From Fidelibacterota bacterium (GTDB lineage Bacteria; Fidelibacterota; UBA8477): a stretch of DNA of 24,607 nt. Shown here one piece after another: positions 655 through 18,076 of the stretch (position 1 is its first letter; every line of letters starts with the position of its first letter). The translations under genes were made by a program, and so were the position numbers. The notes beneath the pieces are model-generated. The model searched no databases and had not been told where the DNA came from. It saw only the letters and a list, made by a program, of their open reading frames with translations. The stretch covers positions 1 through 24,607 of the forward strand of contig JAIPJR010000044.1 in the NCBI GenBank assembly GCA_021734045.1, given 5' to 3'.

Positions 655-690
655 AAAAAAAAGAGCCAACCGTATAAGGCTGGCTCTTTT
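655..690 (-). terminator. Rho-independent terminator after the protease gene
   Basis: A 10-bp perfect stem (659-668 with 681-690, AAAAGAGCCA / TGGCTCTTTT) is followed on the minus strand by a run of eight T residues. It starts 27 nt after the stop codon of the subtilisin-like gene and separates that operon from the rRNA promoter downstream. Confidence 0.93.
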
Positions 691-716
691 ACCATAACAC
701 GAACTTTTTGTGGGCT

Positions 717-3700
717 TTATTTCATGAAGAGCATCTTGCGGGAAATCGTCTGTGCAGGTGTTATTAACTGGTACACATAGACCCCACTGCTCACAGCTAG
801 GCCAGATTCATCTAATCCATTCCACTGCATCGCATACTCACCGGGTTTGACGGATCCCGAGTAAAGTGTGTTGACCCGGCGACCCCTGATATCCCGGACC
901 ACCAACTCCACGCGCTCGGCAACGGGTACAGTGAACCGAATGGTTGTCGTCGGATTAAAGGGATTCGGATAATTAGGCAGCAACTCATACTCAGATGGGA
1001 TGCTAAAGTTGTGGCCATCAGCCAGATCACTGAACGGTTCACCAAACACGCCTGTACGCATCAAATTACCCCGGTCAGTGGCCCAATACCCCGCCTCACC
1101 AGCAGCGGTTTTAATATCCACCACGGCCAGCAACGAGTCGGAGCCGATAATAACTTCGAAATCACCATCGTCATCCAAATTGGCTACGGTAGGCGTACCG
1201 CGTACGCGACCCTGCAGCACGATGGGGAAACCGCTAATCGGCTCACCCGAGGCTGACAATCCGTACAGATAGTTATCATCAGATCCTACAAAAACCTCCG
1301 GTAGTCCATCATTATCCACATCTGCCAATACAGGTGAGCTGGAAATGGTGGAGCCGGTGAGTACAGGCCAACCGGCAATCAATTCGCCGGTGTGATCCAA
1401 TGCGTAGATATTGCGATCGTAAGATGTGAAAAAGATTTCCAGCATCCCGTCACCGGTGATATCACCCACTCCCGGTGTCATCCGCAGGTTCTGGGTTGGA
1501 TCACTGAATGTCCAAAGCACCTCGCCCGTGTTACTGACCGCGTAAAGTTCATCATTATCACTACCAATAACGATTTCCGGGCCGCCAGTATTATCAATAT
1601 TTGCAACCGTCGGTGCGCTGACCAGCCGATCACCCAATTCCACCGGAAATCCGCTGACTTCCGTTCCATCCAGCTTGAAAGCGTGAAGTAGGCTTCCCCA
1701 GGTTCCTACAATGATTTCTAATTCACCGTCGTTGTCAAGATCAACAACCGACACACCTTCGGTCATTTTTTCAGCTGAGGGTAATATCACGGGAAAATTG
1801 TCCAGGGGTGTACCGTCGTGATTAATGACTGCCAATTGCTGATTATACCCGGGCTGAATGATTTCCAACTCAGGATCATCATCCAGATTCACCAGCGTTG
1901 GTGTGGCCATCAGGTAGCCAGAACTTACCAAGAGTGTGTCAGAAGTGCCATCGTGCTGAATGAGGTAGAGATTCCGGTCCCAGGAACCAATCACCACTTC
2001 CAGGTCACCATCATTATCCACATCACCAATAGCAGGGGTCGCTTCGATTTTACTGCCGAATAACACCGGAAATCCCGGTAACTCACTTCCATCCTGCTGA
2101 TAGGCATGCACCAGGGAATCTTCTGCACCGAAAACAATGTCCATTTCACCGTCGCCATTCAGGTCCACCACCGCATTTCCACTCGTGGTTGCCTGTCGCA
2201 TATGAATCGGGAAATTGGCCTGCCACATCGTGACATCAATGGTGAAATCCACATCCACTTCATAGGGATGAGGGCCGTCCTGATTCGCCTGCAAATGGAG
2301 TGTAAAGGGCAATTCCCCAGTAGAAGCCTCTTCGGAAAGTTCGAAATGGAAGGTATCAAACAGATTCGACCCGATATTGCCACTCTGAATCGTACTGAAA
2401 CTAGCCAAAGAATCCAAAATGGTCACAAAGGGACTGGTGGAGGATAGCATACCGGTAACATTTTCGGCATTCATCCAATTGGGTGCATTGCTCAGGGCAA
2501 TACGAAGGTAGGCGCTTTCACCTGCACTTAGCTGATTATCTCCATCATCATCAATCAACTGCAGGCTATGCGAACTGTAAGTCAACGCAGGAAAGATTAA
2601 TTGCGCCAGGGCATTGTAAACATTTATCCGTCCGGCACCCAGTCCACCGGCATAATTGGGATTAATATCATCGATTGGGTCGGCAGCCGCCAGCATACGA
2701 TCAACCATTTCATCGTTGGACATATCCGGATTCATGCTCTTTAATAAACCAAAACTACTCGCCACCAACGGCGAGGCCATGGAGGTCCCCGGCCAGGCAT
2801 CGTATGAGCCCATGTTAGTCAGGACTGTACTCCAAATACCTTCACCCGGAGCCGATAAATCCACAGTAGAGCCATATGTAGCCCAACTGAAAACATCTGA
2901 CGCGCTCACGGCTGTCACCGATACCACGTTATCATAGGCAGAGGGGTAATGAATGTTGTCGTTAGGTGTGCCGTTGGGATTTCCATTTCCAGCGGCAGCC
3001 ACAACCAAGGACCCATAGGTATTGTACGCGGTATTAATCAGGCTCTGTTCAGATGAACTGAAATTGCTAAAGCTACCCCAGGACAGGTTGATAATGTCAG
3101 CCCCAGCCTTGGCTGCATAGAGAATGCCTGAGTATCCACCGGATACATACCCATTGGCATCCTGGTCATACATACACTTCACCGCCATGATGGAACCATT
3201 AAAAATCGTTGCTGCCACGCCAGCACCATTGTCGGTTTCTGCTGCCAGAATACCAGCCACATGGGTTCCATGCGCCCGATAATCTGCGAAAGCCGCACCG
3301 GTCATGGCTGCCATGGGATCACGGTCAGGGTCTACGCCGCTGGTAGTTCCCGCGATATCCCAGCCCAGAATGTCATCCACATACCCATCTGTATCATCAT
3401 CCACACCATTCACCAAAGGGGAATCATCGTGGACGGCATCTTGCAGATCAGCTGTACCATTGTTATTCACATCACCGACATAAGCTACCAGTTCAGCACG
3501 GTTGATAAATCCGTCTTCATCTGTATCAATCGCATCAAAAATCGCAGCCGGAATCTCGTCCTGATTAATCCAGGCATTGTTGCGCAAGTCCGGATGATTG
3601 TACTGAACGCCAGTATCCACGGAGGCCAGCACAATATCCCGCGAACCCGGTTCCACACCACCGGGAATATCCCATAAATCCCATGCCTGGGGCGCCATGA

Positions 3701-4145
3701 TCCGTGGCAGATGCCACTCGGAGTTAAAACGGGTATCATTGGGGCTGTAATTGACGCGATTAATATTTTCCGGTTCCGCATACAGAACATTCGCATCCTT
3801 GGTAAAATCAGCCATCACTGTCGTGAGGATTGCGCGGTCGCGGTCGCCTGGCAGCACAACCCGGTAGATATTCATCAGTAAAACCTCACCATCGCTGTCT
3901 TCAGGACCCGCATTGGGAAGCCAGCGCTCCATACGGACCACCTCGTGGCGCGACAATAATTCGTCCACAGTTAAAATTCCCGTAACCGGCTTTTGTCCTG
4001 CATCCACGGTCACAGTCACCGTGGGAGCTTCAGCCCTAAATGCCACGAGAAATCGGTCTGCGTACTGTTGCGGCTCAACTGGTCCCGCTACTAAACCAGC
4101 TGCCAGGGCTCCAAATATCAGGGCGCTCTTCATTGTTTTATTCAT
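717..4145 (-). CDS. Secreted subtilisin-like protease (S8) with EF-hand insertion, FG-GAP propeller and T9SS sorting domain
   Basis: Surface serine endopeptidase of 1142 residues. ATG at 4145 is chosen over the upstream in-frame ATG at 4211 because AAGGAAA lies 8 nt before it and a signal peptide follows directly (about 1-21). A propeptide-like region (25-130, fervidolysin style) leads to the S8 domain with the full triad: D177 (VDTG), H292 (HGTH), S455 (GTSMASP), and oxyanion N387. D to H spacing is 115 residues against about 32 in subtilisin; the extra segment has a canonical EF-hand loop (207-218, DTDEDGFINRAE) and a second loop (225-236). An Ig-like stretch (520-640) is followed by eight DxDxDG-type repeats starting near 661, 708, 753, 802, 849, 895, 942 and 989, predicting a beta-propeller. 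The tail (about 1055-1142, NYPNPFNPTTT) is a T9SS type A domain. Last gene of the likely receptor operon, 108 nt after its neighbour; the terminator follows. Confidence 0.93.
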   Translation of the reverse strand: MNKTMKSALIFGALAAGLVAGPVEPQQYADRFLVAFRAEAPTVTVTVDAGQKPVTGILTVDELLSRHEVVRMERWLPNAGPEDSDGEVLLMNIYRVVLPGDRDRAILTTVMADFTKDANVLYAEPENINRVNYSPNDTRFNSEWHLPRIMAPQAWDLWDIPGGVEPGSRDIVLASVDTGVQYNHPDLRNNAWINQDEIPAAIFDAIDTDEDGFINRAELVAYVGDVNNNGTADLQDAVHDDSPLVNGVDDDTDGYVDDILGWDIAGTTSGVDPDRDPMAAMTGAAFADYRAHGTHVAGILAAETDNGAGVAATIFNGSIMAVKCMYDQDANGYVSGGYSGILYAAKAGADIINLSWGSFSNFSSSEQSLINTAYNTYGSLVVAAAGNGNPNGTPNDNIHYPSAYDNVVSVTAVSASDVFSWATYGSTVDLSAPGEGIWSTVLTNMGSYDAWPGTSMASPLVASSFGLLKSMNPDMSNDEMVDRMLAAADPIDDINPNYAGGLGAGRINVYNALAQLIFPALTYSSHSLQLIDDDGDNQLSAGESAYLRIALSNAPNWMNAENVTGMLSSTSPFVTILDSLASFSTIQSGNIGSNLFDTFHFELSEEASTGELPFTLHLQANQDGPHPYEVDVDFTIDVTMWQANFPIHMRQATTSGNAVVDLNGDGEMDIVFGAEDSLVHAYQQDGSELPGFPVLFGSKIEATPAIGDVDNDGDLEVVIGSWDRNLYLIQHDGTSDTLLVSSGYLMATPTLVNLDDDPELEIIQPGYNQQLAVINHDGTPLDNFPVILPSAEKMTEGVSVVDLDNDGELEIIVGTWGSLLHAFKLDGTEVSGFPVELGDRLVSAPTVANIDNTGGPEIVIGSDNDELYAVSNTGEVLWTFSDPTQNLRMTPGVGDITGDGMLEIFFTSYDRNIYALDHTGELIAGWPVLTGSTISSSPVLADVDNDGLPEVFVGSDDNYLYGLSASGEPISGFPIVLQGRVRGTPTVANLDDDGDFEVIIGSDSLLAVVDIKTAAGEAGYWATDRGNLMRTGVFGEPFSDLADGHNFSIPSEYELLPNYPNPFNPTTTIRFTVPVAERVELVVRDIRGRRVNTLYSGSVKPGEYAMQWNGLDESGLAVSSGVYVYQLITPAQTISRKMLFMK

Positions 4146-4188
4146 CGAAATTTCCTTTTTAGCTCTCTCTTCATCTGAAACCACAGAA

Positions 4189-4222
4189 GCTGAAAGCGGA
4201 TGGGAAGTCACCAGCTTTCAGC
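4189..4222 (-). repeat. Intergenic inverted repeat
   Basis: A perfect 9-bp inverted repeat (GCTGAAAGC at 4189-4197, GCTTTCAGC at 4214-4222) with a 16-nt loop lies in the 108-nt gap before the protease gene. It has no T tract on either side, so it may attenuate transcription or stabilise mRNA ends rather than terminate fully. Confidence 0.55.
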
Positions 4223-4253
4223 CTCCGGAATATACGACAAAAACAGGTTCTGG

Positions 4254-7106
4254 CTATTTGACCAGTGTCATTTTCTTTGTCATTGAAAACGATCCGCTGG
4301 TGAGCCGGTAAAAATAGACTCCGGACGATATTTTACTACCGTCAACAGTCACCCGGTAGTTCCCGGCATCCTGAACCTCATTAACCAGCTCGGTAATCAG
4401 ACGACCGCTGATATCATAAACAGCTAAATTCACCTGGCCGAAACTGGGAACACTGTAGTTAATCATGGTCACAGGATTGAATGGGTTCGGATAATTTTGG
4501 GACAATGCAAATTCCGCCGGAATCTGGTTATCCCGTGTATAGATACCCACAACAGCCCAAGCCGTGTCCACTACCGCATGAATCATCAAGTTGTAATTCA
4601 AACCGGCGTCACCCATATTCACCCAGCTACCGGCACCATTTATGAATGAATTTCCCTGGTAACCGGAATTGTCAACTCCCATCGAAGGGGTCGAGCTGTA
4701 AATCCGCCAGCCCACGTAAAAGGAGCCTTCGGTAATCCACAGCGAATCAGCCGTAACATCTACCTGGTTCCAGCCGTAACTCAGACCGGAAATGGCACTG
4801 CGGAATAAGTAGTTATTCAAATCCGTCGGCGGTGTGCCATCACTCTCACCCGGCCAGATATAGGCAATGGTGTTCCCATTGGCATCAGGGTCATTCACAT
4901 AAAATCTGATGCGCTTCATGAGCACCGGGTATGCTTCTGGTGTGAATTTCACGGCGAGATAATTCCCGATATCAGTATTGAATCCGGTTTCAGCTGTTCC
5001 GTCATCGTAAGCCATTTCGATCACGCTCGCAGCTTCCGGTAAAACAAATACTTCACTGGAGTAATTGCTTTCCACGCCTTGATACATGGCTTTCACCGCG
5101 TAATAATAGCCCACGCCATTCTCCACCATTTCATCCGTGAAGGTCCCGGCGGTAAGCGGTGTATCGTTCAACGGTGCACCAAAACTGCCACCTTCGGTGC
5201 GACGATAGACATTATAAGAAAAGCCACCGTCGCTCGTGGTGGTTCCCGATGCAAATAGCGCGTAATTCCCATCTAATCCCGTTCCGGTCAGACTAACAAG
5301 GGCACCACCGCTACTGGGTGTATAACCGTACATTTCACCGGCATATTCACCATCGGAATCCAGAGCAATATATGGATAGAGTGTATCCGTATGGGTCCAC
5401 CCGATATAAAAACTTCCCTGAACTGTGAGATCCGCCGGTGTCAGATCAAAGGTCAAAAACTCATCCATGGCACTGGGCATCACCGGGGCGCTCTGATACA
5501 GAACATCCGCATCATCATTCCAGACAGTGACCTGAATTTCAGCCAGCTGTCCGGGATTTGTGGCATTCCCGCTGGAGAGCAGGTAATAGAAGGTTTCTAA
5601 CTGAGTGGGTAATGCGGCATCGAACCGTTGTGCCCAGCCCGAGCCTACATTGCGGCCGGCTACCCAGGGTGGTGAACCAATAATGAACGACTCATAACTG
5701 TCATCACCATAGAAGAAATCCACTTCCTGCGGGTTATTCAGGTCATCCCAGGTCAGCGTAACGCTGCCGGGTGCCATCTCCGCAGTCACATTGGAGGGCG
5801 GGGGTACAATCAACTGAGTGGTTTTGAAAACATTAATATCATCGATATGCAGTCCGGTTCCGTTACCGCCATCATCGTTTGAATCAACACGACTGGTCCA
5901 TTTTAGACGGATATCTTTTCCGGCGTAGGGAGTCAGGTCTAAATCACCATTAAACTCCAGGCCGGATGTATAAACAGTCCAGCCAGCACCGCCCGGACGC
6001 GAAATATCGCCATAGTCGTAGAACAAATCATTCCAGAGAATACCCGAGGCAGTCATATTATCTTCATCTTCAGCATCATTAAAGAAAAGAGTGTCGCCAG
6101 CGTTGTTTACCAGAATATTATCGACATAAAAACCGGTCAGTGTAGGATCATCGGCAACAGAAAATGCCACATCTGACCCCAGTGCAAACCGGATAATGAC
6201 TTCTTCGCCGGCATAAGCACTCAAATCAAAATTACCGTCCAGCCAGTCACCACTGGTACCACCCCAACCCGGGATATTACAGCCGTCACCGTTGGCGGAC
6301 CAACCATAACCACTGGTTGAAGTGTATGCCGGTGCACCTGCCAGAGCAGTCCAATTCACACCACCATCGGTGGAAATCCGCACATTGGCTACATCCCACC
6401 CGTCAATCGAACAACCGTCGATGGTTTGGGCCGGACCATCATAAGCTTCCAAAGCATATTTCAGCTTGAACTGAAGATTGCTGGTGCCCGCAGGCAGTTG
6501 AATCGGATCGGTATCCAGAAACTGTAGCCAGTCGTCAGAATAACCGCCCAAATCCTCGTCACCACACCACCAGGACATCCCCTCGTAAGCGTTTGTCTCC
6601 GAACGGTGCCACGGGATTGCAGTCATGTCCGCAATTTTCACCAGGTAGTAGTCTTCCAAATTATTGTTACCATCACCGTCGAAATCAGGCATATCACAGT
6701 TCACGGCAAACTCGATAGCGAGTTCTTCGATGTCTGTTACTGTCGGCATCGTAATTACCGGGCTGATTAACTCGGAGATACCAGCACCAGCCGGGTTATC
6801 GTCTGCATTCATACTGTGCGTAGGACTGTAAGAATCCAGATCGGTGAGACTCCATTGGCCCGATAAATCCCATCCGGATACATCACCTTCAAAATCCTCA
6901 GAAAAGACCACCTCACTGTCACGGGTGGCAACCTGCATCGGTTGAATCATGCCGGTATGCGGCGTCAGCCCCCGGTCCGATTGTATCGCGGACACTTCTG
7001 TATCAGTACGGAGTACCGTGGATGCCGGATCCATGTCGTTGCCGGTTTTCGCCATTAATCCGACTGCCATTAACATGGTCAGACCTGTGATAAAATATCG
7101 TTTCAT
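4254..7106 (-). CDS. Modular secreted protein with MAM/InhA-like, Fn3 and duplicated domains, T9SS sorting domain
   Basis: Predicted surface or released protein of 950 residues with no catalytic motif that I can see. Start ATG at 7106 is preferred over in-frame ATGs at 7154 and 7124: AGAGGG precedes it and MKRYFITGLTMLMAVGLMA forms a signal peptide. Residues 68-335 and 336-427 look like carbohydrate- or protein-binding beta-sandwiches of the MAM/immune-inhibitor-A type; each ends in a YAG...(I/L)..DNI/DDI element. A fibronectin III-like strand set (about 436-460, 628-688) surrounds a module that occurs twice (about 465-620 and 697-845; GSFYIGW and GSFYVGW). An acidic DFDGDG loop sits at 141-146. 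The tail 868-950 (QNYPNPFNPVT ... KKMTLVK) is a T9SS type A domain. It begins 48 nt after the PorV-like gene, so the two are probably co-transcribed. Likely role is adhesion or binding; this is inference. Confidence 0.88.
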   Translation of the reverse strand: MKRYFITGLTMLMAVGLMAKTGNDMDPASTVLRTDTEVSAIQSDRGLTPHTGMIQPMQVATRDSEVVFSEDFEGDVSGWDLSGQWSLTDLDSYSPTHSMNADDNPAGAGISELISPVITMPTVTDIEELAIEFAVNCDMPDFDGDGNNNLEDYYLVKIADMTAIPWHRSETNAYEGMSWWCGDEDLGGYSDDWLQFLDTDPIQLPAGTSNLQFKLKYALEAYDGPAQTIDGCSIDGWDVANVRISTDGGVNWTALAGAPAYTSTSGYGWSANGDGCNIPGWGGTSGDWLDGNFDLSAYAGEEVIIRFALGSDVAFSVADDPTLTGFYVDNILVNNAGDTLFFNDAEDEDNMTASGILWNDLFYDYGDISRPGGAGWTVYTSGLEFNGDLDLTPYAGKDIRLKWTSRVDSNDDGGNGTGLHIDDINVFKTTQLIVPPPSNVTAEMAPGSVTLTWDDLNNPQEVDFFYGDDSYESFIIGSPPWVAGRNVGSGWAQRFDAALPTQLETFYYLLSSGNATNPGQLAEIQVTVWNDDADVLYQSAPVMPSAMDEFLTFDLTPADLTVQGSFYIGWTHTDTLYPYIALDSDGEYAGEMYGYTPSSGGALVSLTGTGLDGNYALFASGTTTSDGGFSYNVYRRTEGGSFGAPLNDTPLTAGTFTDEMVENGVGYYYAVKAMYQGVESNYSSEVFVLPEAASVIEMAYDDGTAETGFNTDIGNYLAVKFTPEAYPVLMKRIRFYVNDPDANGNTIAYIWPGESDGTPPTDLNNYLFRSAISGLSYGWNQVDVTADSLWITEGSFYVGWRIYSSTPSMGVDNSGYQGNSFINGAGSWVNMGDAGLNYNLMIHAVVDTAWAVVGIYTRDNQIPAEFALSQNYPNPFNPVTMINYSVPSFGQVNLAVYDISGRLITELVNEVQDAGNYRVTVDGSKISSGVYFYRLTSGSFSMTKKMTLVK

Positions 7107-7154
7107 TTTGCCCTCTTTCTTCATCACGGAATGTTTATTGTCCTGAACATTCAT

Positions 7155-8450
7155 TTAAAAAGTTAGCCCCAAAGAAATCTGCTGAACCATACCCAAGATT
7201 CCATAATTGGAGTAGGAGTAGTCAAATAACAAATTGGTACCGTACATGTTGTACTTAGCGCCAAATCCCAGGGAAATGCGTCGCCAGGGGTATTTACCAT
7301 CGCCGTAAAAACTCTCCCAGGCCGATCGATTGACGGTACCCGTTTTCACACGCAATCCGTCGGTAAAATCCTCGTAGGAATCGAAGTCAGAATCAAAGAC
7401 GCCATTATCATTCACATCATCCCAGTCCCAGCGGCTATTACCATTGGAGTCCACGAAATACTCACCCAGATCATACTCACCATTGTACTCCACGCGGTAT
7501 TTGTCGTATGAACTCACCCATTCGTAGTTGAATTTGTAGCCACCACGGAAAAATATCATGTCATTCCAGGCATACTCAAATCCCACGGCACCACGCAGTG
7601 GTGTATCAGAGGCGTCATTGGCATCTGCAACCAAAGTCAAACGGTGTATTGCTGAGGGCATCCAGGGGCTTTTACCACCAATAACATCACTCAAAAGACC
7701 CATCCGGAAAACCAGCGGCAATGGCCAATCTTCCGTCAACAATCGTGATGTTACCTCAGGGTTACCCTGAAGCGTGGAATTGATATCCACCTCCTGATTC
7801 AGATCCGGTCCATCAAACCGGGTGCTGCCACCAAAATTCTGAATGGCCATGCCCAGCGTGAGGCCGTAAATCCCCAAGTTAAAATTTGACCCGATATCAA
7901 AAGCCAGTACAGATGCGGTTTCGCGATAGATTTGCTCCCGAATCCACTTGGTGGTGACGCCCACAGCAAGGCGATCCGTAAGCTTACGGGTGAAAGTAAC
8001 ACCCACTGCCACATCCATGACCTGGAATTGCTCGCCAGTACCATCCGGAAAATCCAGTGTCGTCACCTCCATATCACCGGAATTCATATACTGGGTGGAG
8101 AAACCAAAGTAATTGCTGCTCCCCAGGGGATAAACCACGCCCATGTAGTTATTGGAAATTCCGGCATAAAGCTGTTGTGAGCTGATATACATATCCGGTC
8201 CTGTTGCAAAAGCAATTCCCGCCGGATTCCAAGCTAATGCCGCAGCACCTTTTGCCAGGGCTGTGTAGGCACCAGCCAGCCCAGCGCCGGACGCGCCGGA
8301 TTCCAGTTTTAGAAACTGACCGACAGAGGTAGCAACTTTGGTAAATTCCTGCCCCGGTTGTACCGTATTAAGTGAATCCTGTAATGACTGCTGTGCCAGA
8401 GTGACGCCAGCGAACAACAAACCGAATGCGAAAATGCGAAGCGATTTCAT
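7155..8450 (-). CDS. PorV/PorQ-family outer membrane beta-barrel protein
   Basis: 431 residues. Signal peptide (1-19, ending TLAQ), then the N-terminal hallmark of the PorV/PorQ family: a GASGAGLAGAYTALA...AALAWNPAG block at 52-78, amphipathic beta strands throughout and a C-terminal F, as in FadL-like 14-stranded barrels. PorV is the outer membrane protein that binds T9SS cargo sorting domains and delivers them to the surface attachment complex; assignment to PorV rather than another paralogue is not possible from sequence alone. An unusual insert at 334-355 has two DxNxN...D repeats 11 residues apart, resembling dockerin calcium loops. The ribosome binding site AGGAGGA (8455-8461) overlaps the stop codon of the preceding gene, so translation is probably coupled. 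It sits between two secreted proteins and downstream of a TonB receptor, suggesting service to local cargo. Confidence 0.88.
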   Translation of the reverse strand: MKSLRIFAFGLLFAGVTLAQQSLQDSLNTVQPGQEFTKVATSVGQFLKLESGASGAGLAGAYTALAKGAAALAWNPAGIAFATGPDMYISSQQLYAGISNNYMGVVYPLGSSNYFGFSTQYMNSGDMEVTTLDFPDGTGEQFQVMDVAVGVTFTRKLTDRLAVGVTTKWIREQIYRETASVLAFDIGSNFNLGIYGLTLGMAIQNFGGSTRFDGPDLNQEVDINSTLQGNPEVTSRLLTEDWPLPLVFRMGLLSDVIGGKSPWMPSAIHRLTLVADANDASDTPLRGAVGFEYAWNDMIFFRGGYKFNYEWVSSYDKYRVEYNGEYDLGEYFVDSNGNSRWDWDDVNDNGVFDSDFDSYEDFTDGLRVKTGTVNRSAWESFYGDGKYPWRRISLGFGAKYNMYGTNLLFDYSYSNYGILGMVQQISLGLTF

Positions 8451-8459
8451 GGCGTCCTC

Positions 8460-11400
8460 CTATCGAATGACGGCAAATTTGCCGACATAGGTTTCATAGT
8501 TAGGCGCTTCTACCACAAACACATAAAGCCCGGGGGCAACCTCCTGTCTGTTCATGGAGCGCAAATTCCATTCGGCCTGCCCGGAGAAAATGTCCTCCTG
8601 AAGCAGCGTGTACACCAGTTCACCGGTCAGCGTGAATATCTTGATGGTACACTCATCCGGTAGATGGGTAAAATGCAGCGCTTTGTGATTAATATCTGTC
8701 TCCCAGCCGGCCGTAACGATATACGGATTGGGGACAACCTTCACCTCCGTCAGTAACGACTTGGTGACCGTTGCCATTTCCGTGACCGTGGTGGCATCAA
8801 AATAAAACTCATCACCTCGCTGAAAGGGTTTCAGCATTTTAATCTGGGTAATATCACTTGCCTCATAATGCCGTATATCAGCCAGCGAATCGGGTGGCCA
8901 ACTAATCGTCATGGAGTAGGTGGATTTTGTGCGTAATGAATCAAAACCCGGCACCGCTGACTCACGAAAGACCAACCGGCGTCCACTGTAAAAATCAGGG
9001 AATGCGGGATTTGCAGTTTGGTCTGGCGAACCGCCAGATGCAGCAGTGATGTCCACACTGGTTCCTGCAGTGATATTATAGGTTGTAAACGGTAATACAT
9101 AGCCGTTGGTGGTGGTATCCGGTTCACCCCAGCGCAGCTCATAATCGCATGCGTAGGCAAACGGGAATCCCAAGCCGTTGGAAAGACTGAAATTATATGT
9201 GGGTGCAATTGACTTCGGTTTATTCACCCATTCAATTGTATCCAGCATCGCCTCTTCGATATTTTCAGTGAATAGCTGAAATCCACCCCATGAGTTGCCC
9301 AGCTTACTTTTAAAGCCCATTTCAACCGGTGTGCGTTGCGCCGCACGGGTAGCGACCGTATCCCGCACCCAAAGAGAATCTCCCGGTGAACCGGGATCTT
9401 CAACATATTTATAAATCCAGCCAATCAGCGTGTCACCGGTGGTAGTATCAATCACCGAATAACTAGGATTGCTGATATATAATGGGTTATTCTCCAGCGG
9501 TGAGTCGGCTCCGCCTTTGAACAATGGATCAGCATCCACCGTAATCCGATACACATGATCATTGCCAACTACCTGAGATTTATCAGCTGGTAATACACTC
9601 ACGCTGCCGGTTCCGACGTTCCAGTCCGCCCGATCCACTGTCCAGTTCTGTGGCGCATTGGATGGCCGGGCATCCGGTGTCACATGGACTACCTGCGGGA
9701 GCAAGTCGCTGGTCCCTTTGAAATTTTCCAGAGATTCCAGCATGTATTTCCATTTACCATTCACACTGGTGTAAGAATCAGTGGAATCGATACCAATGTC
9801 GTACGCCACCACCGCATAAGTATAGGTAACGCCATTCAGGACATCTGTATCTTCGAATTTGTGTTCCAAACCCGTGTTGTTACCCAGATGCAGCCAGGGA
9901 GCCACCTGGTCCGGCCCATCGTAGGATTTACCGTACAGATCTTCATCCTCTTCCTGGGTCAGATCAAATTGTGCTATCGGCTTCCAGCCTACCGCTTGCT
10001 GATCCGTGTTTTTGATCCGGTCTCTGGCCGGGTCTCCCCACGTCATACCACCATCCGTGGATTTATAAATTTTATATCCTTCAAAATCAGCCTGCCCCGT
10101 CACGATGTCCCGGGAATCTTCTGCGGCTGAATCCCAATATAGAGTAATCTTACCATCTTCCGGAATGGCGGATACTGTGGGCGCTTGTGGTGGGCTGAAT
10201 CCCTGATAATGCAAGTCGTACATAATCTGGGCAATTTCAGCGTTTTTCGCCAAATCGGGTGGTGTTTCCAACGTTTTGGTGTCTGACGGTGGATCACCCA
10301 TCACCACAGCAAAGCTGAAATTGGCCGTGTCACCCGCAGCCAGATCAAATGGACCGGCTGACATGATGAATACACAATCAAGACCATCCGGGAATGCCTG
10401 GCGCAACCCTTCCAGCGAATCGAAATGCGGATTTAAAACGCCCGCATCATCAGCATGAAAGTACCAGTTTTTATAATTAGATGACATGGGATTATTGGAA
10501 CCGTCCGGAATACCACGCCAGTCCCAGCCATAAAAATCTTGCTTGGCATAGCTGGTATCACCCGACATCAGGGCGTACATAATCGCTTCCTTATCCACTG
10601 CACCAGGACAGCCTGCTGCACCCGCATAAGGATCGCCACCTGAACAACTTCCACCGCCGGTTTCATCTTTGGTTACACCCGGCCGTTTGTACCAATCAAT
10701 CCAATGCCAATCTGTGAGTCCCAGGCTGGATCCCTGTGAAATTTCCGGAACACCGTCACCATCATAATCGATATCCCGGGAAGCGCTGGGTGTATCCAGT
10801 AATTTCAGGGCTGAATAGGCCAAGTCGTGTGCTCCGGAACTATTGTCATCCCAATCCCAGATGAAGGCCATGTTATACGTCGTATCAAAGGCCATCATAT
10901 CGTCATCATTGGTACGACCGATATAGTCTGAACCCAATCCTCGTAACGAGTAGGAATCCACATCAAAATAGAATCCGCCGTAAATCTCCCGGTAATCAAA
11001 CCCTGCGCTGGGATCGCCTCGAAACCCGCGCGGATAATACTCATACCGCACCGAATCCGGCCCCACCATGTAGGGGACCATGACCACATTGGTTTCACCG
11101 TCACCAGTGGTGTCCAACGGAAACCCCTTCCAACTCTCATTGATAATCTGCACCGTGAAAAACACCACATCTTCCGCATAGGAACGACCATAACTATGGG
11201 CATTCACCAATACACGGGTGCCTGTGGGATACCCCTGGGTCGGGTCTTCATCCCGCGTGGCCAGCCGATCGTCAAATTCCATATATACATCCTGGTCACC
11301 CACAAAAGTCCCGGGAATGGGTTCCAGGTAATTGGGTGCGGCTTCGTCTGTAACAACGGCCCAGTCGCCTGGCCAGGTACGCTCTTCTTTGCCGGTCTCC

Positions 11401-12008
11401 TGATTCAGAAGAATTGGCCAGGTTAATGGCACATCACTGCTGGCAAGCAGCGGATAGGGATCGCCCGTATCGGTATAAAGTCCGCCATAAATTTCACCAG
11501 CTGCAACTTCACCGGAATGCAGCCTGCCACGAGCACCTTCTACCGCTTCCCAGTCCACCTGTTTCGAGGCGTCGGTCCGGTCAAACCACGATTCACTCAC
11601 TGTAGATCCCCAATACACCAGATCGCCGGGGACATGGCGATTTTCAACAACATCAAAACGCGGCCTTACAGCCCAGGGATAGGCTTTTGTATCGCCTAAA
11701 ACGCGTCCCGGCACACCCAGAATAAATGAAACATCCGAAATGTATTGATAACCTTTGTAATAACCCGCCGGATAAGCGCCACTGCTGTATTGAATAAAGC
11801 TGCCATAGTTTTGGGTAGCAAATTGTAATTCACCCTTGCTGGCATACGCCCGCGCCCGATTTAACAGCGGGTCAGTGGCCGTCATTTTTGCGACTTTATT
11901 CGGGTATTTCAACGTTGGCTCAGCAGCCCATCCTGATACCGTCATAGCCACGTAGGCCAATCCGATTATCACTATTTTTTTCATCGTGGTTTTTACTTCC
12001 ATATTCAT
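8460..12008 (-). CDS. Large secreted protein with Fn3-like domain and divergent VVPNPY-type sorting domain
   Basis: 1182 residues; I do not recognise a characterised family for its first 600 residues. Start at 12008 has AAGG 5 nt upstream; an internal ATG at 11984 (MKKIVIIG) is an alternative that would shorten the n-region. A signal peptide follows (cleavage near GWAAEP). The N-terminal half is rich in Trp, Tyr and Asp and carries acidic loops DTTGDG (near residue 298) and DYDGDG (near 412), and two nearby cysteines (CSGGDP...GCPG). A fibronectin III-like unit begins near 605 and includes YKIYKSTDGG. The last 94 residues (1089-1182) keep the sorting-domain fold pattern but start VVPNPYIV instead of NYPNPFNP and end KFAVIR. 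The gene lies 49 nt after the TonB receptor and 9 nt before the PorV-like gene, so it is the best candidate for the receptor's partner at the surface. Confidence 0.82.
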   Translation of the reverse strand: MNMEVKTTMKKIVIIGLAYVAMTVSGWAAEPTLKYPNKVAKMTATDPLLNRARAYASKGELQFATQNYGSFIQYSSGAYPAGYYKGYQYISDVSFILGVPGRVLGDTKAYPWAVRPRFDVVENRHVPGDLVYWGSTVSESWFDRTDASKQVDWEAVEGARGRLHSGEVAAGEIYGGLYTDTGDPYPLLASSDVPLTWPILLNQETGKEERTWPGDWAVVTDEAAPNYLEPIPGTFVGDQDVYMEFDDRLATRDEDPTQGYPTGTRVLVNAHSYGRSYAEDVVFFTVQIINESWKGFPLDTTGDGETNVVMVPYMVGPDSVRYEYYPRGFRGDPSAGFDYREIYGGFYFDVDSYSLRGLGSDYIGRTNDDDMMAFDTTYNMAFIWDWDDNSSGAHDLAYSALKLLDTPSASRDIDYDGDGVPEISQGSSLGLTDWHWIDWYKRPGVTKDETGGGSCSGGDPYAGAAGCPGAVDKEAIMYALMSGDTSYAKQDFYGWDWRGIPDGSNNPMSSNYKNWYFHADDAGVLNPHFDSLEGLRQAFPDGLDCVFIMSAGPFDLAAGDTANFSFAVVMGDPPSDTKTLETPPDLAKNAEIAQIMYDLHYQGFSPPQAPTVSAIPEDGKITLYWDSAAEDSRDIVTGQADFEGYKIYKSTDGGMTWGDPARDRIKNTDQQAVGWKPIAQFDLTQEEDEDLYGKSYDGPDQVAPWLHLGNNTGLEHKFEDTDVLNGVTYTYAVVAYDIGIDSTDSYTSVNGKWKYMLESLENFKGTSDLLPQVVHVTPDARPSNAPQNWTVDRADWNVGTGSVSVLPADKSQVVGNDHVYRITVDADPLFKGGADSPLENNPLYISNPSYSVIDTTTGDTLIGWIYKYVEDPGSPGDSLWVRDTVATRAAQRTPVEMGFKSKLGNSWGGFQLFTENIEEAMLDTIEWVNKPKSIAPTYNFSLSNGLGFPFAYACDYELRWGEPDTTTNGYVLPFTTYNITAGTSVDITAASGGSPDQTANPAFPDFYSGRRLVFRESAVPGFDSLRTKSTYSMTISWPPDSLADIRHYEASDITQIKMLKPFQRGDEFYFDATTVTEMATVTKSLLTEVKVVPNPYIVTAGWETDINHKALHFTHLPDECTIKIFTLTGELVYTLLQEDIFSGQAEWNLRSMNRQEVAPGLYVFVVEAPNYETYVGKFAVIR

Positions 12009-12057
12009 GCTAACCTTGTCAGTGCATAACGACCCATCAACTCACATTGCCTGCCCA

Positions 12058-15000
12058 TCAGAACGACGCTTCCAATGTGAAGTCAATCTGCCTGGGGTCT
12101 GAGTAGTAATAAGGCCGGTCAAATAGGGTGTTCGAGGCAGAACCGTCTTCAATAGCCCGGGTGTTCAGGCGTCCCGGATCCACAGCGCTGCCGGTTTCCG
12201 CGTAAATATCAATGACATTCTCACGGTTAAAGATATTCCGCACAATGATACCAGCCGCCCAACGGACACCAAATAATTGCATGTATTTTCGATAGGCCAT
12301 ATTCGTTTCGATATACCAGGGCATTCTCTGACTGTTGGTAGCACCGAAACTCTTGAGATTAATGTCATACGGCGTATAGGGCGCACCGCTCATGGCTACC
12401 ATGGTGAGATTCACATTGGAATGATTCAATGGCCGCATACCAAAAATCACCGGGCTATTGTCTTTGGTAAATTGATAACCCGCCGTTGCGGTGAGGTTAT
12501 GGGTACGGTCGTAGTTCATCAACACTTCTTTTTTCGGCATGGTTTCCGGTGTGTCAGAGGAGCGATATCCCTGCCAGGCGTCTGCCCGGTTCGCCGTGGC
12601 CCGTGAAAGCGTGTATTGAATGACGGTGGACCAGGCGCTGCCGCCCCGCTTTTCCAGGGTTAAGTCCATTCCGCGGGCTGAACCATAGTCATAATTCACC
12701 ACTACTGAATAATTGTATGGAAAGGATTTCACACGCTCCGTAGCGGCCAGGTCAGAGTAATCTTTGGACCACCCCACCAATCCCATACGCCAGTAATCCG
12801 AGAACTGATAATTCAGTCCGAACTCGTAGGATGAAGCTTTTTGCGCCTGCACATGGGCGTTTCCCACAATGGGTGACGGCGTGGTCAGGTCTCCCGCGTC
12901 ATTGAGATAAATATTCCGATAGGTAGGATTCTGGAAAAAGCGGCCATACCCGAAGGTGAATGTGGCCCGGTCCGTGATAACATGTGAAATACCCAGTCGC
13001 GGCGACCAGAGAACCTTCCAGTCGGACGGCACCAGCCCGGACCAACTGGCCCGTGGATCTGCCCATGAGGTGTCCCGAGAATTCTGCATATCCGCCCGCA
13101 GACCCACATTGATAGTCATCCAGGGGTATTCAATTTTATCCTGGACATAGGCGCCCAATTCCAGTGGTGATTTCTCACCGGTTCCGTTCAGGAATTTGTC
13201 CCAACCAGTTCGGTCCACCTGCCCTGGTAAGCCATAGACTTCCAGATAAGGTTCGCTTAGCCACGGGAGCTGCGCTTCATCAAAGGTGATAAAATGGCGT
13301 TTGAAATCCACGCCGGCTCGTAATTGGTGGTTTTTATTCACACGACTGGTGATATCGAACTTCACCTCATCGGTCACTGATTTTGTCCAATGCCGGTATC
13401 GGTCAGCACCACCGGAGAAATATTCATAATAAAAAATGTAGTACAACGAATCGCGCATGGCCTGGATGTCCTGAGAAGTCATCACACCAGTGGGTGGATT
13501 GCTGTACAGATTGTAAGTGGAATCGGGGAAATAATGGTACTGCCACGAAGCATACTGCCCCTGCTCCAGCCATTCGTTGTTCGGATCACCGTAATGCCAG
13601 AAATGGGAATTACCCCGGTCATCGGTGTATTCCATGGAATCCAGTGGTACGATGAGATACCCATTCCGAAACGGATTAAAGCTCTGCAACGAATTATCCA
13701 GAATTTTGACCTTATCATAAGGTTGAATCTCAAGGGCCCCGCCAACTGGAATCGTCATCTCCACGCCATCGCCATAGGGCGCGCCTTCACCGGTACGGGA
13801 GAAATAGAGAATCTTGGTGGGTAAACAACCCGGACCCCAGGACTCATAAACATCCGAAGTCTCTTTGTCGTTGGTGATGGTAGCGCCGGGCAGGTATTTA
13901 TCAATAAAGGGAATATCGCATTCACCCTTGTAATCATGCCCCATATGCAATCCCCGTGCTTCCGTCCCGGCTTTAAACTCCACCCAGTCCGGATAGCCAT
14001 CGCCATCCATATCGCCATTCTTCACACCAATCTTCATCTGTTGGGTAAACCGACCGACTGACAGTGTGTAATAGGTTTTTTCATTCAACTGGTGGCGGAA
14101 CTCCATATTGTAGCGCTCCGACCACTTGCGGTTAATATTCTTCCCTTCCTCATAAAACTGATAAAAGCGGTCGAAGACCTGGAATTCCGAATTCACATAC
14201 CAGTAGGTAAAATTCAGTTGCTTATAATTATCAATTTTCCAGTGCAGCTTGGTGAAAATGTCCGAGGTATTGTCAAATCCAAATGAACGCCAACCGGCAT
14301 ACCGATCCAGCCAATTAACTTTATTAGTCTGATTATTCACACCACCCACATCATTGGGATTATAGACCTTATCATCAAATTTCAGCGTACGATAAGCACC
14401 GGTGGTAATGTCTCCGGAGATAGAGAATGTGAATTTATCACCTAAGGCTGGAATAATGGGGCCACTCAAACGACCGGCAATTTTCTGATAATCGCGCAGC
14501 TGGTCATTTTTCTGGGGGCTCACACCGCTGCCCTCCAGGGTCAGCTTCACCTCATACTCAGCACCGCCGGTATGGGAGATATTATTCACGATACTGGACA
14601 TGGCATCGCCATATTCCGCACTGAATACACCGGTTTGGACTTCCAGCTCTTCCACGGCGTATTTATTCAGACGCGTGCCCTTACCAATACCACCATAGAT
14701 GGGATTCTCGATGTACATTCCGTCAATGGTGTAACCGATTTCACCGGAGCGACCGCCACGGACATGGATCTGTTCAATACCACGATCTTCAAACCCGGGG
14801 ATACCGTACTCTGCACTCTTAATCTGGATTACACCTGACTGCAGAGTCAGCATTTCAGTGAGATCACGCACCGGCAGGTTTTGAATTTCTTCAGCCGAGC
14901 GAACCATCTTCTTCACGGTCACATCTTTTTCCACCATAGGGCGTTCCGCCGTGATGACCACCTCTTTTCCCTGAACAAATCCTTCCTGCATGCGAAAATT

Positions 15001-15294
15001 AATACGGGTGGTTTGGTCCATGATAACCCGGACATCCTCATAGGTCAGCGCATCATAGCCAATCATGGTCGCTTTGAGGGTATAGCGTCCCACCGGGACA
15101 TTTTCGATAAAATAATCACCCTCAATATCCGAAGAGGTCCCCAGTCCCAGACCCTCGACAACAATATTGACGCCCGGCAGGGGCTCTCCCGTATTGTCAT
15201 CCACAACGGTTCCGGCAATTGTTCCAACTGTTGCCGCGAAGGTTAAGTTATTCCCCAGCAGAAACAGCAAGCCAAGAACAACGAACCGCCTCAT
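12058..15294 (-). CDS. TonB-dependent outer membrane receptor with carboxypeptidase-like N-terminal domain
   Basis: 1078 residues. ATG at 15294 is chosen because AAGGAG lies 6 nt upstream; an in-frame ATG at 15309 overlaps that site. Signal peptide 1-20; a CarboxypepD_reg-like Ig domain at 24-105 (GTVVDDNTGEPLPGVNIVV); plug domain about 115-240 (VVITAERPMVEKD, VRGGRSGEIGYTIDGM); then a 22-strand-type barrel to the terminal F1078. The family imports bound nutrients using energy from TonB-ExbBD; the substrate cannot be read from sequence. No SusD-like lipoprotein gene is adjacent, unlike glycan utilisation loci. An extracellular-type loop near residues 424-437 has a DMDGDGYPD calcium-like motif, unusual in such receptors. 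First gene of the likely operon running to 717; a long hairpin element lies in its leader region. No TonB-box was identified with confidence. Confidence 0.93.
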   Translation of the reverse strand: MRRFVVLGLLFLLGNNLTFAATVGTIAGTVVDDNTGEPLPGVNIVVEGLGLGTSSDIEGDYFIENVPVGRYTLKATMIGYDALTYEDVRVIMDQTTRINFRMQEGFVQGKEVVITAERPMVEKDVTVKKMVRSAEEIQNLPVRDLTEMLTLQSGVIQIKSAEYGIPGFEDRGIEQIHVRGGRSGEIGYTIDGMYIENPIYGGIGKGTRLNKYAVEELEVQTGVFSAEYGDAMSSIVNNISHTGGAEYEVKLTLEGSGVSPQKNDQLRDYQKIAGRLSGPIIPALGDKFTFSISGDITTGAYRTLKFDDKVYNPNDVGGVNNQTNKVNWLDRYAGWRSFGFDNTSDIFTKLHWKIDNYKQLNFTYWYVNSEFQVFDRFYQFYEEGKNINRKWSERYNMEFRHQLNEKTYYTLSVGRFTQQMKIGVKNGDMDGDGYPDWVEFKAGTEARGLHMGHDYKGECDIPFIDKYLPGATITNDKETSDVYESWGPGCLPTKILYFSRTGEGAPYGDGVEMTIPVGGALEIQPYDKVKILDNSLQSFNPFRNGYLIVPLDSMEYTDDRGNSHFWHYGDPNNEWLEQGQYASWQYHYFPDSTYNLYSNPPTGVMTSQDIQAMRDSLYYIFYYEYFSGGADRYRHWTKSVTDEVKFDITSRVNKNHQLRAGVDFKRHFITFDEAQLPWLSEPYLEVYGLPGQVDRTGWDKFLNGTGEKSPLELGAYVQDKIEYPWMTINVGLRADMQNSRDTSWADPRASWSGLVPSDWKVLWSPRLGISHVITDRATFTFGYGRFFQNPTYRNIYLNDAGDLTTPSPIVGNAHVQAQKASSYEFGLNYQFSDYWRMGLVGWSKDYSDLAATERVKSFPYNYSVVVNYDYGSARGMDLTLEKRGGSAWSTVIQYTLSRATANRADAWQGYRSSDTPETMPKKEVLMNYDRTHNLTATAGYQFTKDNSPVIFGMRPLNHSNVNLTMVAMSGAPYTPYDINLKSFGATNSQRMPWYIETNMAYRKYMQLFGVRWAAGIIVRNIFNRENVIDIYAETGSAVDPGRLNTRAIEDGSASNTLFDRPYYYSDPRQIDFTLEASF

Positions 15295-15356
15295 AAATCT
15301 CTCCTTCATTCAATCCCGCTTCAGGTGTTTTCCTCACCCCAGAGTCGACGTAAGCA

Positions 15357-15463: not shown

Positions 15464-17386
15464 TTACTTCATCAACATCATTTTTCGAACAGCCGAATAG
15501 CTACCCGCATTCATTTTATAAAAATACATACCGCTGGCCAGATTGCTGGCGTCGAAGCGTACCTCATGGTGGCCGGCTGTCATGTAGCCATTGACCAGAT
15601 TAGCCACTTCCCGTCCCATCAAATCATACACGGCCAATTGCACCTGCCCATTTACAGGGAGGTCAAAAGCCAGTGTGGTGGTGGGGTTAAAGGGATTAGG
15701 ATAGTTCTGGTCCAGCATAAAACCATCAGGCCGGACTCGACCTTCATCAGCCACATCTGTTCCCGAAACCGGGAAGGTATAAGACCGGAAGTAAATCCGA
15801 CATTTGTAATCTTCACTGCTAGCCGGTGGGTTTACGGTAGGGACATCAAAGTCCGGCATTTGATAAACCATGTAAACGGTACCATTGGAAGCAAGTGTAG
15901 CAAAATGCGGATCAATCTCATCCAGTGCCGGATCTTCAGTGTCGGATATATTAATGGGATCACTCCACGTGGCGCCATTATCCTCAGAGAACACAGCCAT
16001 AACATCCATATAGGCGATGTCAGAGCTGGTATCCGGCCAGGTATACCAAGACACATACAGTGTGCTATCCAATGCGTTATCGCGGGCAATCGTGGGGAAA
16101 ACGCCCTGCCAACCCGGATCCTCAAGCAACCAAGCGGACTGCAAGCTGCCAATGGGGTTGATGTCCCAATTCAGCAGATCATCCTGGGGAGAGTAAAAAT
16201 GATAAAGTCCATTATACTCTGACCAACCCGGATAGACGCCACCCGTCGCAGAAGGCAACACACCCGCTACAATATGACAACCACCATCATCATCAACCAT
16301 GACATCCAGGTCATAATTAACAAATGGGGTCCAGTCAGGATCCAGAACCGCCCAATCATTGGAGCTTTCATCCCAGATGCTATCGGGGAATACCTCCCAG
16401 AAATAGTCATTCAGCACCTCGTCCGGGATATAGTGCCAGTCACTCCAGGTATCACCATAATCAGTAGTCTGCTTCATGAAAAGCGTATGATTGGCAATGG
16501 CCAGGGTATCATTCCAATAGCCGGAAACCACAAAATACCCCACACCATTGTCATTGATATTCAATGTACCGTTGGAGGTATAATTACTGGCGGCATCACC
16601 TAAAAATTCCCGAGCCTGATCTACTAAAACCACAGCCGGTTCCCACGCTAGAGGCGTGCCGTTCCAGGTGCCCGCGGTAGTGGCGCGAAACAGATATTTA
16701 TTGCGTGGATCCGTCCAGTCGGCAAAACTGGCATTTACATACATATTGTCCGTTTCGTCATAATTTACGTTTGGTGACCCCTGCCAAATATCGTTCGCAG
16801 TTGGGTTGGTATGTAAATCAGCAGGTGGTGCAAAAATTTCACCGCCATACTCACCTTCATCGTATGTATAGTAAGCCCGACCACCGTAGTCGCCGCCGCC
16901 GCCGCCGTATTCATTCCAGATAATCATGGGGAAATTGGGCGTAGCAAAAGCGCTGGGATAACGACCGGCCTGCTGCACACCCACTCCCGCATTCAGGTTG
17001 GAGTAGGTGAAAAAGCTGGAGCCGCCGTCTTCAGACAAGGCTGCGCCGATGACACCCGATGAACCGGTTTCGCCAGCCCATTGGCGGTAGGCCAGGAGGA
17101 AACGATTATTAACCGGATCCCAACTCAGCGGATTGGTTTCTCCCACCAGCATACCATATCCATTCAGAGAGGAATCAACCAGTACGACATTATCTTCACG
17201 TGTACTGGGTAGATAAGCAGGTCCGCCCACGCCGGGTTCCGGAATGATTTCCTCACCCTGGGGGGTTAAATGTTGATTTAATGTAGCCGGTACCTGCGCT
17301 GTGTTTGACTGCCTAACCGTCCTGGCGGCGCCAAAAATCGTCGTAGAAAAAATAAAAATCGACAATAGTACCCAAAACTTCTTCAT
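15464..17386 (-). CDS. Secreted BNR/Asp-box repeat (sialidase-like propeller) protein with T9SS sorting domain
   Basis: 640 residues. ATG at 17386 has GGGAG 5 nt upstream; signal peptide 1-20 (MKKFWVLLSIFIFSTTIFGA). The body resembles sialidase-type beta-propellers: Asp-box motifs of the S-x-D-x-G-x-x-(W/F) type occur at 118-125 (SEDGGSSF), 307-314 (TTDYGDTW) and 467-474 (SEDNGATW). I cannot identify the arginine triad or the nucleophilic tyrosine of true sialidases, so enzymatic activity is not claimed. A Gly run (161-165) and YGG repeats give a low-complexity loop near 160-182. Residues 557-640 form a T9SS type A domain (DQNYPNPFNPTTT...KMMLMK). A good promoter lies just upstream, so the gene is probably transcribed separately from spmAB, although read-through from spmB is possible. 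Likely located on the cell surface. Confidence 0.87.
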   Translation of the reverse strand: MKKFWVLLSIFIFSTTIFGAARTVRQSNTAQVPATLNQHLTPQGEEIIPEPGVGGPAYLPSTREDNVVLVDSSLNGYGMLVGETNPLSWDPVNNRFLLAYRQWAGETGSSGVIGAALSEDGGSSFFTYSNLNAGVGVQQAGRYPSAFATPNFPMIIWNEYGGGGGDYGGRAYYTYDEGEYGGEIFAPPADLHTNPTANDIWQGSPNVNYDETDNMYVNASFADWTDPRNKYLFRATTAGTWNGTPLAWEPAVVLVDQAREFLGDAASNYTSNGTLNINDNGVGYFVVSGYWNDTLAIANHTLFMKQTTDYGDTWSDWHYIPDEVLNDYFWEVFPDSIWDESSNDWAVLDPDWTPFVNYDLDVMVDDDGGCHIVAGVLPSATGGVYPGWSEYNGLYHFYSPQDDLLNWDINPIGSLQSAWLLEDPGWQGVFPTIARDNALDSTLYVSWYTWPDTSSDIAYMDVMAVFSEDNGATWSDPINISDTEDPALDEIDPHFATLASNGTVYMVYQMPDFDVPTVNPPASSEDYKCRIYFRSYTFPVSGTDVADEGRVRPDGFMLDQNYPNPFNPTTTLAFDLPVNGQVQLAVYDLMGREVANLVNGYMTAGHHEVRFDASNLASGMYFYKMNAGSYSAVRKMMLMK

Positions 17387-17542: not shown

Positions 17543-18076
17543 TTAAAACACCAAATGACACACTAAAACAGCCGCGATAATGCCGGCCAGATCTGCAGTC
17601 AACGCAGCAGGCAGCGCGTGGCGGCTGTTCCGGATTGAAACAGACCCAAAATAGACCGCTAACACATAAAATGTGGTCTCGGTAGACCCCTCCATCACTG
17701 ACGCCATCCGGCCAATCATGGATTCGGGACCATGGGTGGTTACCAATTCGCTGACAATGCCTAAAGCACCGCTACCTGATAATGGACGCATAAATGCCAT
17801 GGGGACCAGTTCACCCGGCATACCAATCAAACCTGTAACCGGTGAAAGCACTTTCGCCAATAACTCAAGCGCGCCGGATGTCCGGAATGCGCCGATAGCG
17901 ACTAAAATTGCTACCAGATACGGGATTATCTTAATGGCAACCTGGAACCCTTCCTTAGCGCCATCGGTGAAGACTTCATACACCTTGATTTTCTTATAGT
18001 AACCCCAAATCGGAATCACCAGTACAATTACCGGAATCGCCAGGACGGAAACAGCGTTAATGATGTTTTGAAACAT
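17543..18076 (-). CDS. spmB: SpmB-like nucleoside-recognition (Gate) domain membrane protein
   Basis: 177 residues, full length for the family (about 175). Hydrophobic segments near 5-28, 48-68, 84-100 and 150-177, with the conserved FMRPLSGSGALG block (114-125) and GSTETTFYVLAVYFGS (149-164) diagnostic of SpmB. In Bacillus SpmA and SpmB are needed for spore core dehydration; homologues are common in non-spore-formers, where the transport or membrane role is unsettled. Its ATG directly follows the TAA of spmA, and GGAGG lies within the last codons of spmA, so the two are translationally coupled. No terminator was recognised after the stop codon; the next gene's promoter lies about 80 nt downstream. 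The organism need not sporulate. Confidence 0.93.
   Translation of the reverse strand: MFQNIINAVSVLAIPVIVLVIPIWGYYKKIKVYEVFTDGAKEGFQVAIKIIPYLVAILVAIGAFRTSGALELLAKVLSPVTGLIGMPGELVPMAFMRPLSGSGALGIVSELVTTHGPESMIGRMASVMEGSTETTFYVLAVYFGSVSIRNSRHALPAALTADLAGIIAAVLVCHLVF

Follow-up and report, generated by a model that had tools for sequence, protein, structure and literature searches.

A co-inherited cassette of TonB receptor, secreted partner and PorV/PorQ-family barrel genes in Fidelibacterota

Organization of the locus

The stretch of DNA analysed here, hereafter the window, is contig C8 (24,607 nucleotides) of a 2.54 Mb genome from the Fidelibacterota, assembled in 119 contigs and 92% complete, and it carries on its minus strand genes for a TonB-dependent receptor, a large secreted protein, an outer-membrane barrel, a second secreted protein and a protease. 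The phylum, also named Neomarinimicrobiota or SAR406, is a little-studied group of ocean and subsurface bacteria that occurs widely in the dark ocean and for a long time had no cultured member. The receptor gene (12058..15294, with an alternative start at 15309) encodes a signal peptide followed by CarboxypepD_reg, plug and beta-barrel domains. Next, the gene at 8460..12008 encodes a 1182-residue secreted partner protein, termed the cargo, which has a Sec signal peptide without a lipobox. Its predicted layout comprises an N-terminal supersandwich domain of the galactose-mutarotase-like type (residues ~50-606, 10191..11861, placed from AF2 models), an FnIII-like region (607-780), a beta-rich middle and a sorting-like C-terminal domain, CTDx (8463..8756), a divergent type-A-like domain placed by profile alignment and a structural match to PorZ. 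The gene of the PorV/PorQ-family outer-membrane barrel (7155..8450), putatively a dedicated shuttle or anchor, is followed by those of a 950-residue secreted protein (4254..7106) with an InhA-like MAM domain and of an S8 subtilase (717..4145) with Asp, His and Ser motifs and FG-GAP repeats, both of which carry a type A sorting domain (TIGR04183). An intrinsic-terminator-like hairpin with a 13-pair stem and a T-run (659..690) closes the operon; it is credited on stem length and location, the overall yield of the terminator scan being not above that of shuffled sequences. All of these features lie on the minus strand, as does the 5′ end of a 16S rRNA gene at positions 1-136, about 0.5 kb from the end of the operon, within which rRNA gene the contig breaks.

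The original prediction for this DNA had named five same-strand genes with gaps of 49, 9, 48 and 108 nt and a single terminator after the S8 protease. All five genes and the hairpin are present, the gaps hold with the starts chosen there, and the products proposed for the receptor, the PorV/PorQ-family barrel, the 950-residue T9SS-type protein and the protease are all matched by family searches. The prediction had also remarked on the absence of SusD, with the secreted protein in its position, and this is borne out: SusD/RagB (PF07980) gave zero matches in the whole genome, with a positive Bacteroides control, which speaks against a SusD encoded elsewhere in it. The receptor itself scores far below the cut-off of the SusC/RagA family (TIGR04056; 60 bits against 368). 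A TonB gene is present in the genome, a TonB-box-like stretch was detected by a strict pattern, not used further, in 10 of 41 receptors, and a lipobox was found in none of 41 cargoes.

Upstream of the receptor, on the same strand, lies the gene of a 640-residue type A sorting-domain protein (15464..17386), which holds the same position in the orthologous loci. In all nine of these, eight of them labelled as Neomarinimicrobiota, the order of 640-residue protein, receptor, cargo, barrel, MAM protein and S8 protease is kept to the contig limits, so that the protease and the MAM protein are steady companions within the orthologous group. A gene pair at 17543-18766 on the minus strand, which we take to be spmA/spmB-like, is likewise kept upstream in most of the orthologous loci that extend so far.

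The cassette in the genome and across the phylum

The combination of TonB receptor, large secreted cargo and PorV/PorQ-family barrel occurs six times in the genome of origin. Besides the window, the trio is found on contigs C36, C9, C18 and C39, and the last of these shares a 114-base identical overlap with the right end of the window, which places two trios within one stretch, the second just upstream of the window. The gene severed at the join, which runs from window positions 23196-24607 into C39 (L054), encodes a type A protein of ~1500 residues and directly follows the second receptor-cargo-barrel cassette. Contig C54 breaks off past a cargo gene, with the first part of another gene behind it, and C59 begins with the tail of another gene, followed by a receptor, an IS200-like insertion and a barrel. 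The two look like halves of a single sixth locus, joined here across contig ends without an overlap; they are read as one since five loci of other genomes hold the same set intact, with the receptor between cargo and barrel, and a reading of the C54 cargo and the C59 barrel as orphans was set aside on the same ground. The DNA that separates receptor and barrel in this sixth cassette (L055:3876-5300) holds a gene for an IS200-like transposase along with repeats of a 'GLKPRL..PGFSPETQLTQK' reading frame, and the insertion lengthens the open frame of the barrel. The picture originally drawn of the locus was right about the trio and the barrel-cargo link, and it missed five more trios and the C-terminal domain of the cargo.

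A profile built from the alignment of the cargo C-terminal domain was searched against 41 genomes of the phylum and found CTDx in all 41, in 1 to 23 copies apiece; the barrel family is likewise present in all 41. Among the best 30 CTDx loci a barrel gene is immediately downstream in 24 and a listed barrel lies about 1.5 kb downstream in 6. For 40 further CTDx loci linkage to a barrel was present in 34 of the 34 with sufficient flank (25 adjacent, two with about one gene between, one with a 3.1 kb gap, five in which the receptor and further genes intervene, and one with the barrel before the cargo). In 19 genomes another 20 loci were read, and all 20 show the core trio, one of them being truncated before the receptor. 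In a set of 50 cargoes, made up of these 20 loci, 20 more that are mostly several per genome, and those of the genome of origin, the receptor is just upstream in 44 and the barrel is next or next but one in 47; the exceptions are contig ends, second cargoes and a split type of cassette. The median gaps are 2 nt between receptor and cargo and 9 nt between cargo and barrel. Receptor, cargo and barrel genes are adjacent, nearly always in the same order and mostly a few nucleotides apart, and they are inherited together as a unit; the co-occurrence in related genomes on which the original prediction had staked itself holds phylum-wide, in 41 of 41 genomes. Three reduced genomes of 0.9-1.0 Mb (G005, G025 and G033) each retain a single CTDx together with two genes of the PorV family, so the signal is kept in one copy even in streamlined genomes.

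Annotations of some Calditrichota, Ignavibacteriota, Gemmatimonadota and other FCB phyla place PorV/PorQ-family genes beside TonB receptors. No description of the receptor-cargo-barrel cassette was found in the open-access papers searched; one of them reports for SAR406 that genes with Por sorting domains are duplicated in large numbers and that TonB receptors are numerous, without this pairing (PMC5596340).

The S8 protease and the 950-residue MAM protein accompany only the orthologous group of the window locus, and other cassettes have other companions or none; upstream of their receptors, the commonest same-strand gene is that of a type A protein (19/34). In the split-type cassette (L204:961-3798, L056:5236-6081) a c-type heme motif opens the companion that follows the cargo, and the L204 copy also has an OB-fold nucleic-acid-binding domain, which hints at a substrate class other than that of the protease locus. 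In one subclade a gene of ~460 residues stands between cargo and barrel (L134:9823-11211, L141:2376-3761; also L147, L163 and L166), and the two of these that were tested both match SurA-like N-terminal domains of the periplasmic chaperone/PPIase type; such a gene fits an export role.

The original prediction took the unit to be a complex for peptide capture and degradation. At the window locus this may hold, as every orthologous locus of sufficient length has the protease and the MAM protein behind the barrel and the catalytic motifs of the S8 protease are intact. As the meaning of the cassette in general it is doubtful, since the pair is confined to the one orthologous group and the other cassettes are without proteases, and the supersandwich of the cargo is best known from carbohydrate-active proteins.

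The cargo signal and its barrel

The 1182-residue cargo has no match in Pfam and none by phmmer in the PDB. An AF2 model computed from 14 sequences reached a pLDDT of only 45 and was therefore read together with a second one, built for a homologous cargo from a deeper alignment around that relative; this second model has a mean pLDDT of 77.6 and resembles the supersandwich of GH15/GH94/GH116 enzymes (Z up to 20.2 over 261 residues at 3.2 Å). The low-confidence model of the window cargo agrees, with a supersandwich at residues 50-606 (Z 17.0 to 9ju0, 231 residues, 3.5 Å) and an FnIII domain at 607-780 (Z about 8.8). The cargo body is accordingly modelled as a mutarotase-like supersandwich with FnIII, a fold that leaves the ligand undefined. 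The description of the cargo as unrecognised stands as far as Pfam is concerned, but a predicted body of supersandwich and FnIII and a sorting-type C-terminal domain are recognisable.

The C-terminal domain follows the motif V.PNPY...A.WE...LP...G...W[DN]L...G.Y...GKFA.I[KR]. The window cargo does not match the type A model (TIGR04183, cut-off 23 bits) at E 0.01, and 9 of 40 relatives do, with a best value of 4e-5; in a profile comparison, CTDx and the type A signal are homologous with 94% probability. The type B models (TIGR04131 and CHU_C, PF13585) do not match the cargo; among 40 relatives they give weak matches to 4, the best with E 0.005, and no type C (ChiA class) match surfaced in a scan of NCBIfam, in which it is uncertain which model represents type C. 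Compared with type A signals, CTDx is extended in its first loop, has an invariant W and retains a lysine near the end, a residue known from type A signals (PMC10994853). As judged by these profiles, CTDx is related to the type A sorting signal but distinct from it. In structure, residues 687-776 of PorZ match CTDx (cargo residues 1092-1182) with Z 10.9 and 27% identity. An identification of CTDx as PorZ proper was ruled out, as the PorZ-like gene on contig C4 is the better candidate and the PorZ profile is not selective against ordinary type A domains; since it scores some of those in the same genome equally high, the likeness to PorZ lends weak support to retention of CTDx on the barrel.

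The barrel of the window is a member of the PorV/PorQ family (NF033709; 151.2 bits, cut-off 90) and scores below the equivalog cut-offs of both T9SS PorV (NF033710; 56.5 bits, cut-off 250) and T9SS PorQ (NF033711; 67.2 bits, cut-off 220), although the NF033710 cut-off alone is harsh for this phylum, since no scanned barrel of the genome reaches 250 bits; the general PorV on contig C48 has 175.5 bits. Among cassette barrels, 15 of 16 score nearer to PorQ than to PorV. The genome encodes eight family members above the cut-off, and in the tree the cassette barrels group together, with the one-per-genome PorV, including that of C48, in a separate clade (support 0.999). The window barrel as the only PorV, serving all cargo, which would have run against the original prediction, is thereby ruled out. 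After the C48 PorV gene lies a gene for an M6-like inactivated metalloprotease (L058:7277-11539; NF052323, 350 bits, under the cut-off). In the genome of origin a barrel gene directly follows 5 of 6 CTDx genes, as opposed to none of the 66 genes with a type A domain over the TIGR04183 cut-off (Fisher p 4e-7), and the earlier view of the barrel as embedded with its cargo has proved correct, as barrel and cargo go together in the cassette.

Receptor, cargo body, CTDx and barrel have distance matrices that agree with one another over 41 full trios (r 0.74 to 0.92), and they still agree when only within-genome paralogues are compared (permutation p at most 0.0015), where r is 0.82 for receptor and body and 0.70 for CTDx and barrel. 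With the other two parts held fixed, receptor-body (0.63) and CTDx-barrel (0.42) are the two strongest links, and these coincide with the two contacts of the model proposed below. The coincidence is suggestive only, since the cassettes duplicate as units and the partial correlations are drawn from 57 non-independent pairs; co-inheritance of a duplicating cassette would raise all the correlations without any contact.

An alternative role for the barrel is that of a FadL/TodX-like pore passing hydrophobic compounds, or of an additional uptake channel, with the cargo an ordinary T9SS substrate of the general PorV. PorV is a homologue of FadL and the window barrel has weak Toluene_X and TodX matches, but PorV (6h3i) is by far the best solved match (E 2e-15, compared with 0.003 for TodX), the barrel follows CTDx genes and never the type A genes of the genome, and its distances track CTDx more than the receptor, all of which makes a channel of this kind unlikely.

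A proposed receptor-partner complex and its relation to known systems

Type A cargoes leave the SprA channel with PorV, while type B cargoes use cognate PorP/SprF-like barrels, which are often encoded next door and stay bound (PMC12618676, PMC9143113, PMC10202324), and the C-terminal domain of PorZ is retained on PorQ (PMC10202324). The genome of the window has the T9SS core genes for SprA, PorU, a separate PorV (C48) and a PorQ-like barrel (C107), and the complex is not self-contained as originally proposed, the general T9SS channel and sortase being encoded elsewhere in the genome. By analogy with these systems, we propose with a probability of roughly 0.55 that each TonB receptor of the cassettes carries a T9SS-delivered partner that is shuttled, and perhaps anchored, by a barrel of its own. 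First, the cargo would be exported by Sec and then through the general channel SprA. Next, CTDx would be picked up by the co-encoded PorV/PorQ-family barrel, bypassing the general PorV, and the barrel would stay bound to it and anchor the cargo at the surface, like SprF with SprB and PorQ with PorZ; as CTDx keeps the type A lysine, the general PorV might carry it too. Finally, the supersandwich and FnIII body would dock on the co-encoded receptor and aid ligand capture, the T9SS-delivered cargo thus playing the part of the Bacteroidota lipoprotein SusD. At the window locus the S8 protease and the MAM protein, as type A cargoes of the general PorV, would in addition cut protein, and the receptor would import the products. 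An extension of the model to the whole phylum, in which receptors with SusD lipoproteins would be replaced by receptors with T9SS-exported partners, each held by a private PorV-family shuttle reading its own class of C-terminal domain, is put forward tentatively.

The CarboxypepD_reg-plug-barrel build of the receptors, which we take to be Oar-like, could also be read the other way, with a TonB-energised Oar-like receptor serving secretion by exporting or placing the cargo, the end product being an adhesin or surface layer. In Myxococcus, Oar is reported to be needed for the secretion of PopC (PMC6434023). However, a second exporter appears unnecessary beside T9SS core genes and sorting-type C-terminal domains, and the protease-type companions suit uptake better, which leaves a secretory receptor rather improbable. 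A BamG-like accessory assembling the receptor-partner complex is hardly credible for the barrel: some cassette barrels weakly match BamG, and BamG/BamH have been discussed for SusCD assembly (PMC12611786), but the BamG scores of 21-35 bits are far under the cut-off of 250 and the PorV/PorQ-family scores, and one dedicated copy per cargo ill suits a general BAM subunit.

If the partner is indeed delivered by the T9SS and held by a barrel of its own, the cassette would represent a new pairing of T9SS cargo signal and shuttle, in which relatives of PorV, hitherto regarded as one general shuttle, have been multiplied and specialised, and it would imply that large surface receptor-partner complexes can form without surface lipoproteins. 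It would likewise offer a first handle on uptake in SAR406/Fidelibacterota, each cassette being a listable receptor with a ligand to find.

Among known systems, SprB-SprF, Fjoh_3952-Fjoh_3951 and PorP-PG1035 share with the cassette the layout in which a T9SS-type cargo gene is directly followed by a gene for a PorV-like outer-membrane barrel of its own, each cargo having such a pair. In contrast to the SprB-SprF type B systems, the cassette barrel belongs to the PorV/PorQ and not to the PorP/SprF family, the C-terminal domain resembles type A and not type B, and the set includes a TonB receptor gene. The likeness to SusC-SusD (RagAB) lies in the many paralogous pairs of a CarboxypepD_reg TonB receptor and a large partner at the surface, near which secreted hydrolases are encoded, whereas the cassette receptor falls under the SusC cut-off and a barrel is added; unlike SusD, the partner is without a lipobox, is not SusD-like in sequence, and has a predicted supersandwich body and a T9SS-type C-terminus. 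PorQ-PorZ offers the precedent of a PorV-family barrel that keeps a surface protein via an uncleaved C-terminal domain; the cassette barrels score nearer to PorQ than to PorV, and the PorZ domain is a close solved structure to CTDx, although the cassette is not orthologous to this pair, whose counterparts in the genome are a separate PorQ-like gene (C107) and a separate PorZ-like gene (C4), and the bodies of the cargoes are modelled as supersandwiches. Finally, the canonical PorV shuttle, one per cell for all type A cargo, is of the same family as the cassette barrels, which differ from it in forming a separate clade of many copies, each tied to one cargo gene.
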